From positions 310,001 to 374,000 of the forward strand of contig NZ_JAMZFY010000002.1 in NCBI RefSeq assembly GCF_025457605.1: 64,000 nt of DNA, in the 5' to 3' direction. The translations under genes and the position numbers were made by a program. The notes beneath the pieces are model-generated. The model made no database searches, was not told the DNA's origin, and worked only from the letters and a program-made list of their open reading frames with translations. This document shows, piece by piece, positions 3,789-5,675 of this stretch (positions are counted from its first letter, which is position 1; each line of letters starts with the position of its first letter). The DNA comes from Haloarcula laminariae. GTDB taxonomy: Archaea > Halobacteriota > Halobacteria > Halobacteriales > Haloarculaceae.

Positions 3789-4508
3789 CTACCGCGACTC
3801 CGGGGCCTCGACGTTCCGGTTGCCGCCGTGGGCGTCGGCGCCCTCGCTCGGCGCGGCCCAGCGGACGGCGTTGTCCAGTACCGTCTGGATGTCCTCGCGG
3901 TGGTAGATGGGGTAGGTCTCGTGGCCCGGTCGGAGGTAGAACAGCTTCCCGCGGCCGCGGCGGTACGTACAGCCGCTGCGGAACACCTCGCCGCCCTCGA
4001 ACCAGGAGGTGAAGACGAGCCGGTCCGGTTCCGGGACGCCGAAGGGTTCGCCGTAGGTCTCGGTCTCCTCGATGACGACGGACTCGCCGAGCCCGTCGAC
4101 GATGGGGTGGCCGGGGTCGGTCACCCAGAGCCGCTCGCGCTCGTCGCCCTCGCGCCAGGTCAGGTCACAGGGCGTCCCGAGCAGGCGTCTGAAGGGTTTT
4201 GAGGCGTGGGCCGAGTGGAGGACGAGCAGCCCCATCCCCCCGTTGACGCGCTCGACGACCCGGTCGACGACGGCGTCGTCGACGGCATCGTGGGCGGTGT
4301 GGCCCCACCAGACCAGCACGTCGGTGTCGGCGAGCACCGACTCGGTGAGACCGTGTTCGGGCTCGTCGAGCGTCGCCGTCCGCGTATCGTGGCCCCGCTC
4401 GGCGAGTGCGTCCGCTATCGCCATGTGGATGCCGTCGGGGTAGACCTCGGCGACCGCGTCGTCCTCGCGCTCGTGGATGTACTCGTTCCAGACTGTGACT
4501 GATGGCAT
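3789..4508 (-). CDS. ThuA domain protein (trehalose utilisation-like)
   Basis: A 239-residue ThuA-fold protein related to class I glutamine amidotransferases without an obvious catalytic cysteine-histidine triad. Family signatures are [13 protein letters not shown] at the N-terminus, [12 protein letters not shown] (about 64-75), [14 protein letters not shown] (about 92-105) and the C-terminal [20 protein letters not shown]. ThuA relatives act in trehalose or keto-sugar metabolism in bacteria; the substrate here is unknown. The gene is monocistronic, with a gene-poor 0.5 kb region upstream. Confidence 0.9.
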
Positions 4509-4650
4509 GGCTACGCTTGGGCCGGTGTGTGGCTAAAGGTAGTGCTTGCCTGTGGTGGCAGCTACTGTGACACTCGGCCCTACTCGCTTGCTTGTAACTG
4601 TCTGTGACCGCAACGCTACGCTTCCTTCTCTCTCGGAAGCCCTCACCCGC

Positions 4651-4711
4651 TCGGCGCGGCTGTGCGGGATATCCTCGCGGCGCTCGGATAGGGCCCGCGC
4701 AGCCGCGCCGA
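4651..4711. repeat. Imperfect palindrome, 18-base arms
   Basis: The left arm TCGGCGCGGCTGTGCGGG (4651-4668) is the reverse complement of the right arm at 4694-4711 except at one position, which would be a G-U pair in RNA. The 25-base spacer has its own weak symmetry (ATATCC against GGATAG). There is no coding signal. Confidence 0.7.
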
Positions 4712-4718
4712 CCGCGTT

Positions 4719-4861
4719 CGCCCTTCCAGTCCGCCAGGCACAGCGGGCCTGCCCTTCCCCGACTCAGCCGATGAAACGGCTTCGCGGCCGGGAGTGCGCT
4801 CCGTCGCACGACTCGGGGAAAGGCAGGCTATCGGGGTCGTCCCTGGCGGACTGAAAGGGCG
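4719..4861. repeat. Long nested imperfect palindrome
   Basis: Outer arms at 4719-4738 and 4842-4861 (CGCCCTTCCAGTCCGCCAGG against its near-perfect reverse complement) enclose middle arms at 4747-4765 and 4810-4828 (GCCTGCCCTTCCCCGACTC and its reverse complement with one change). Inside these lies a small hairpin, AGCCG-ATGAAA-CGGCT, at 4766-4781. Together they fold into one stem-loop of about 143 bases with internal bulges. Confidence 0.75.
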
Positions 4862-5066
4862 AGACGGCTGGCGGGCGCTGTGGCGGCACTACCGAGCGAG
4901 GTATCCGTCACAGCGCCCGCGAGCTGTCGAGGGCTTTCTAGCGGTAAGTAATCGCAGTATCGACTGAGGCTACGTCGGTTCCTAGCGAGCAGTCGGGAGT
5001 CCGAACAGCCACGAGCGCCCCGAGACGTGCTAGACACTCAAGCGCGTCCCGCCACACGGATTGGAC

Positions 5067-5675
5067 ATGGAGGTCCACAACGTCACCGCCGACGCAGAGA
5101 CGTTCACCTGTAACGCTTACCTCGCGCTGGGCGAGCGGACCACGCTGGTCGACGCGGGGGCCTGGGGCGGCGTCGTCGACGCCGTCCGCGACCACACCGA
5201 CGACCTCGACGCGGTCGTCCTGACCCACCAGCACGGCGACCACGTCCAGGAACTCGACGGCGTCCTTTCGGCCTTCGACGCGGAGCTGTACGCCTACGCC
5301 GAGCACCCGCGCCGGGACCGCGCTATCGACGACGGCGACGAACTGCTCGTGGGCGACGAGACCTGCGAGGTGGTGTACACGCCCGGCCACGCCGACGACC
5401 ACGTCTCGCTGGTCTCGGCGAACTCGCTGTTCTCGGGCGACGTGGTGGTCCACGACGACGGCGCCTTCGAGGGCGGGTCCTTCGGCCGGACCGACCGGCC
5501 GGGCCAGTCGCGCGAACGCGAGATAGAGAGCATCGAGCGGCTGCTCGACCGGATGCCCGACGGCGTCGAGGGGATGTACTCGGGCCACGGCGGCGTCTTC
5601 CACGGCGACGTCCGGGGCATCGTCGAGAAAGCGCTGGAGCGGGCCCAGCGCCGCGAGCCGAAGTACCCCGAGTGA
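5067..5675 (+). CDS. MBL-fold metallo-hydrolase (glyoxalase II-like)
   Basis: A 202-residue metallo-beta-lactamase-fold hydrolase. The metal-binding motif THQHGDH (about 52-58) is intact, followed by YTPGHADDH (about 113-121), LFSGDVVV with the bridging aspartate (about 130-137) and the final ligand in YSGHGGVF. It resembles glyoxalase II-type hydrolases of thioesters. I chose the ATG at 5067; a TTG two codons upstream is in frame but less likely. The physiological substrate is unknown. Confidence 0.9.
   Translation: MEVHNVTADAETFTCNAYLALGERTTLVDAGAWGGVVDAVRDHTDDLDAVVLTHQHGDHVQELDGVLSAFDAELYAYAEHPRRDRAIDDGDELLVGDETCEVVYTPGHADDHVSLVSANSLFSGDVVVHDDGAFEGGSFGRTDRPGQSREREIESIERLLDRMPDGVEGMYSGHGGVFHGDVRGIVEKALERAQRREPKYPE

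Follow-up and report, generated by a model that had tools for sequence, protein, structure and literature searches.

Palindromic repeats without a transposase are numerous in at least one haloarchaeon, Haloquadratum, and are little understood; those treated in the relevant sections of PMC3119063 include the PATEs and SMR-A, the latter an element of ~110 bp with inverted ends that inserts in the palindromes of IS605-type elements and of PATEs. The element reported here lies in a stretch of 64,000 bases from Haloarcula laminariae, hereafter the window. Like these repeats, it is haloarchaeal, palindromic and free of a transposase. Compared by description, its hairpin module, module A, fits SMR-A in size and inverted ends, whereas the PATEs differ in being IS605-related, with near-terminal palindromes similar to those of IS605-type transposons (PMC3119063, same sections). 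With REPINs and REPs, as characterized in the parts of PMC3116915 and PMC3733652 that deal with their layout, it shares two inverted palindromes around a spacer, a mostly extragenic location and a variable copy number; however, module A is about three to five times longer than a REP of 20–40 bp. The IS6-family MITEs, as outlined in the passages of PMC7986276 on their ends, resemble the copies in a relative (genome G058), where the hairpin doublet has IS6-like ends with a GG tip and a TGTT motif as well as 8-bp target duplications. The window copy differs in being without such ends, and the body of the element is a conserved hairpin doublet. No description of this element family was seen in the open-access literature on haloarchaeal palindromes, MITEs, REPs, REPINs and gene conversion, a scope that makes this weak evidence of absence.

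The preliminary description of this DNA reported two large consecutive palindromes at 4651–4711 and 4719–4861, with arms differing by one or two bases, and on both points it was borne out base by base and, for the palindromes, by a scan of the window. The 18-nt arms of the first palindrome (4651–4668 and 4694–4711) have one mismatch, T·G on the + strand; the 20-nt arms of the second (4719–4738 and 4842–4861) also have one, C·A on the + strand and G·T on the − strand; and the 19-nt arms inside the second (4747–4765 and 4810–4828) have two. The scan, for 18-nt inverted arms with at most one mismatch and a loop of at most 130, found exactly two centres in the 64,000 bases, 4651/4711 and 4718/4862, and zero in three first-order Markov control windows. 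Two further features were absent from that description, namely a third hairpin inside 4853–4938, homologous to the first but in inverted orientation, and base pairing between the two outer ends (4635–4644 with 4929–4938), which gives a predicted four-way junction. The predicted RNA fold of 4640–4870 has a z-score of −7.0 (+) or −10.2 (−), matched by none of 200 shuffles, and that of 4625–4950, which unites all three hairpins on either strand, reaches −13.2 (−) and −10.8 (+), equalled by none of 100. Three mechanical ORFs run over the region (4546–4854 +, 4165–4809 − and 4828–5037 −), none of them with a Pfam match at E ≤ 0.01. Both palindromes belong to a single small DNA element that contains no gene and consists of inverted hairpins (Table 1). 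We consider it probable that this element is a mobile palindromic repeat of haloarchaea that is non-autonomous and that IS6-type transposition has moved in one genus. It is best read as REPIN-like in layout and not as a REPIN.

Table 1. Features of the element and its surroundings, in window coordinates; modules A and A' were both in the training set of covariance model R1, and their 113- and 89-bit scores are not independent.
Feature	Position	Strand	Basis
Flanking gene, ThuA family (PF06283)	3789..4508	-	
Whole insertion relative to syntenic genomes without it	4550..5033	.	5 filled vs 9 empty loci; left edge approximate, by eye
5' arm, 44 nt, starts CTTG (CTAG in several relatives)	4591..4634	+	Comparison with other copies
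Hairpin module A, GGAAGCCCTC...CGCCCTTCCAGTCCGCCAGG	4635..4738	+	Alignment of 37; model R1 113 bits, E 4.6e-20
Palindromic core	4739..4841	.	Other core in both G028 copies; relatives of the 3' half stand alone elsewhere
Hairpin module A', inverted homolog of A	4842..4938	-	R1 89 bits, E 6.3e-15, - strand
3' arm, 47 nt, terminal CTAG at 4982-4985	4939..4985	-	
Probable remnant of a further outer arm, terminal CTAG at 5030-5033	4986..5033	.	By eye; tandem arms in several relatives
Insertion right edge	Directly before ACACTCAAGCG		CTAG precedes conserved host sequence in five filled loci
Flanking gene, metallo-beta-lactamase superfamily (PF00753)	5067..5675	+	

Module A, ~105 bp in size, reads from GGAAGCCCTC to CGCCCTTCCAGTCCGCCAGG; between these, the two sides of a stem enclose an inner hairpin, conserved around GGATATCCTCGC...GCTCGGATAGGGCC. 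The doublet layout recurs in 49 module pairs, two of which have a module in common, and among these pairs the core ranges from 28 to 462 bp in length. By eye, several relatives have tandem repeats of the arm, together with the first module bases, on both sides. Nested insertion of the element into the central CTAG of an earlier copy was considered as the source of these tandem arms, but slippage would account for them as well, and we chose neither. CTAG is found 30–49 nt outside 37 of 158 distinct modules, against ~1.4 expected from its rate in the loci. As a general element end, however, it was rejected: just 18 of the 49 pairs have it at a distance of up to 60 nt on one side or both, and 8 have it on both. 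The motif is about tenfold under-represented in the window (19 observed, 185 expected from base composition). As to the core, its 3' half also occurs alone, by eye just 3' of genes in this genus (L041:734-777, L042:685-729, L057:868-921 and L058:798-839); other palindrome-rich sequence follows it there. This standalone half may represent a repeat family of its own or an element resembling a terminator. In the public G028 sequence (L063), the module A hairpin contains NNNNN and a stretch of C, probably an assembly break at the palindrome.

Comparison with syntenic genomes identifies the block as an insertion, with a divergent pair of genes on either side. In a sample of 30 loci around the downstream gene, the upstream ThuA gene was within reach in 15; the element is present in five of these (558–754 nt between the flanking genes) and absent from nine (77–110 nt). 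In the fifteenth (L072, genome G016), which was excluded from the comparison, the two genes are ~1,047 nt apart and the element finds no match. The remaining 15 of the 30 loci are uninformative about the site. In all five filled loci, CTAG stands immediately 5' of ACACTCAAGCG or a variant of it. The H. laminariae genome (G000) has a second copy elsewhere, 90% identical over 381 nt, and the flanks of this locus 2 are common to it, to the second copies of G022, G027 and G028 and to a copy in G032, apparently at the same site. A second copy occupies one shared site in all five filled genomes and is degenerate in one, G031, which has also lost module A' at locus 1. Locus 2 is short in L296, L297, L298, L303 and L305–L307, with 122–349 nt between the flanking genes; among the 20 loci fetched, the second flanking gene was not found in seven (L293–L295, L299, L300, L302 and L304). 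The empty sites are too diverged for a target duplication to be read at either locus. Two other observations were made at locus 2. L301 (516 nt) and L302 have another large hairpin instead of the doublet (GGGACTGAAAGGGGCCGGTCGCTCGG... in L301), and a short conserved reading frame lies 5' of the second flanking gene (L288–L292, L296 and others), which by eye translation ends in about DDGCGCVEVWEHMSE and perhaps encodes a small protein.

The element is widespread. With the locus as query, blastn matched 91 of 146 family genomes at E ≤ 0.001, part of the matches being to the core only. Model R1, built on module A, had matches at E ≤ 0.001 in 133 of the 392 genomes of the order, from 45 of 90 genera, and in 60 of the 392 (counted by hand, under seven family labels) the best E was ≤ 1e-8; these figures come from at most ten matches listed per genome, with rough E-values and with training sequences supplied by some of the matched genomes. 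R1 matches number 6 in the H. laminariae genome and 120, 46, 38, 35, 32, 27, 25, 16 and 11 in nine genomes chosen for high counts. An exact-pattern scan, whose pattern is restricted to GAAAGCCCTCG forms and is unable to match module A of the window, returned 102 stretches from hosts including Halosimplex, Halomicrobium, Haloarcula pellucida, Natronomonas, Natrialba and Natronococcus. A phage collection gave no match to the element, a plasmid collection one partial match (Halorussus) and viral contigs zero matches to one exact pattern. A weaker, single-hairpin relative of module A was seen at L094:1501-1614 (G000:C2:119819-119932), and in many genomes of this genus R1 gives one or two weak matches, possibly one conserved locus.

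As to gene context, 80 modules with called neighbours divide into 38 in tandem, 34 in convergent and 8 in divergent intervals, as opposed to 78 convergent and 91 divergent among the remaining intervals in these loci (Fisher p 5e-5); the contrast is smaller for intervals >200 nt, modules included (60 convergent, 40 divergent). Genes were called by codon-position GC in 102 loci from few genomes, mainly Halosimplex and Halomicrobium, and 5 of the 80 modules lie inside a called ORF. The window copy, between divergent genes, sits in the less usual context; the genes flanking locus 2 are also divergent, and the short reading frame may intervene.

The clearest signs of mobility are in G058. Twenty loci were fetched from this genome of 46 matches and searched for ends with up to 3 mismatches; IS6-like ends, GGTAGTGTTCAGATAAG and its reverse complement, flank the module in 16, are missing at three and are single at one. 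Exact 8-bp target duplications accompany nine of the 16 end pairs, and 7 of 8 bases agree in one; among the others, one is apparently shifted by a single base and five agree at no more than 5 positions. Six more end pairs, from the stretches around unpaired ends, had zero exact duplications. PF13610 (IS6-type transposase) was matched at distances of 82 and 91 bp from two additional copies of the G058 end, although a second end beside these two matches was not found. In the H. laminariae genome itself, a complete 698-bp IS has these ends, with one mismatch each, and an exact 8-bp duplication; its transposase match, at 24.3 bits, is under the Pfam cut-off of 27. It follows from the G058 ends with their 8-bp duplications, the PF13610 neighbours and the IS of the H. 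laminariae genome that a miniature element of IS6 type can have the doublet as its body. The miniature element was among the options of the preliminary description, and the empty sites at the locus together with the target duplications in G058 uphold it; the palindromic repeat scattered through the genome, another of its options, has materialized in the further copies that blastn and the covariance model found in H. laminariae and related genomes.

Two points count against a simple mobile reading of the window copy, however. First, window-type copies have no transposase tied to them; by eye, no IS6-like terminal inverted repeats were seen around the window copy, and no IS6 ends in the printed stretches of G003, G118, G163 and G198. 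Second, such good conservation would not be expected of a dead mobile element. The doublets of G000, G022 and G027 are 89–93% identical, similar to the flanking genes (86–91% from G000), and that of G031 at locus 1 is 88–92% identical to these three over the shorter stretch present; the identity of the G028 doublet with them is lowered to 81–84% because its core has been replaced. The adjacent arms are 45–76% identical between genomes, where 200 shuffles of one arm gave a mean of 49% and a maximum of 59%. The puzzle is that a doublet ~90% identical across three species lies beside arms that are near random.

The two copies of a genome also have changes in common. We counted states shared by both copies of one genome and by no other of eight copies, and found 92 columns in 24 runs for G028 (core replaced), 15 in 7 runs for G000, 2 for G022 and, for G027, 61 columns in 3 runs that represent a 63-nt insertion, which G031 and G032 seem to carry at locus 2; 8 states are shared by locus instead. 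Without G028, the genome-shared states are 62 (G027), 21 (G000) and 2 (G022), against 12 locus-shared. In the tree, within-genome pairing is firm for G028 (100/100), weak for G000 (68/30) and absent for G027 and G022. For Haloferax volcanii, gene conversion is documented between genome copies (PMC11276520); we infer that it can also act between distant loci.

The good preservation of the doublet therefore leaves room for a domesticated role, in which an old mobile doublet would now act as a DNA signal, as a cruciform or as a hairpin bound by a host protein, in chromosome organisation or local transcription. We rate this as unlikely, with the caveat that its odds overlap with those of the mobile reading, a mobile origin being compatible with it. 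The conservation between species, the two loci common to related genomes, the changes shared between copies in some genomes and the keeping of Watson-Crick pairing without overall strand bias all argue for such a role. Against it, G031 is without module A' at locus 1 and degenerate at locus 2, the core is replaced in G028, and most syntenic genomes of the genus have no element at locus 1. Similarly doubtful is the more specific proposal that selection acts on the doublet in the form of folded DNA (or RNA) at two fixed intergenic positions, with gene conversion between the distant loci keeping the copies alike and with a putative cellular role and hairpin-binding protein.

How the arms stay complementary bears on another alternative, a structured non-coding RNA of ~300 nt with a four-way junction that would be kept by selection on RNA folding. 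The very stable predicted folds speak for such an RNA, as does a doublet far better conserved than its arms. Covariation does so too. In 118 model-aligned modules (108 distinct; 100 of the loci searched), 95.8% of cells pair, both sides have changed in 30 of 32 pairs and compensation is seen in 472 cells, as opposed to 111 in shuffles, with the reservation that the model fits its alignment to the structure and thereby favours it; a model-free MAFFT alignment of 37 gives changes on both sides in 23 of 32 pairs. The kind of mismatch is more telling. Selection on RNA should favour G·U, passing through it. Of 3,432 cells, 3,207 are Watson-Crick, 81 G·T, 53 A·C and 91 others; one column contributes 39 of the G·T (T·G in 39 of 108 sequences) and zero A·C, which is in favour of RNA and shows that at least one pair is strand-asymmetric. 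Without this column G·T falls to 42 against 53 A·C, where G·U should dominate. This near balance suggests correction of the arms at the DNA level, since RNA selection passes through G·U, and it points to pairing maintained at the DNA level more than by RNA selection. For comparison, 19 tRNA predictions from the loci have 27 G·T and 0 A·C, as drawn by a program that may not draw A·C. Furthermore, the window has no Rfam family at the gathering threshold (two weak local matches at the locus are far below theirs), the modules are oppositely oriented, so that a single transcript reads just one in sense, and matches per genome range from none to 120. Taken with the mismatch balance, this makes the RNA quite improbable and speaks against the non-coding RNA put forward in the preliminary description. 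The same text had suggested selection on RNA folding or a young repeated element: the repeat stands, with copies that do exist and whose arms still pair in relatives, the RNA selection is not supported, and we read the window copy as old.

A REPIN proper, mobilised by an IS200/IS605-like tyrosine transposase (RAYT), is very improbable: the layout agrees (the 49 pairs are inverted palindrome doublets in extragenic DNA, mostly outside called genes and with many copies in some genomes), but the modules are ~105 bp and not 20–40 bp, 5 of 12 genomes that bear the element (G000, G028, G061, G003 with its 38 element matches, and G163) are without a match to the RAYT-type Y1 transposase (PF01797), and in the other seven none was seen within 10 kb among the element copies listed.

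We therefore return to the non-autonomous mobile repeat and propose how it may work. Two hairpin modules of ~105 bp face each other around a variable core, with short arms outside, and the palindromes would be carried by transposases acting in trans. The border of the window copy is marked by CTAG and not by IS6 ends. Complementarity of the hairpin arms would be kept by DNA processes, that is, by copying one arm from the other and by gene conversion between copies. The window copy is old, present at its site since before the five species split, and in some of the five genomes it has changes in common with its sister at the second locus.

For the haloarchaea, the module is now defined and searchable by covariance model, and it provides a natural test of how long palindromes survive and keep their complementarity. 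Should the domesticated reading be true, the doublet would be a non-coding palindrome pair evolving in concert. The juxtaposition of a conserved doublet and fast-changing arms makes the question of whether it is selfish or domesticated directly testable.
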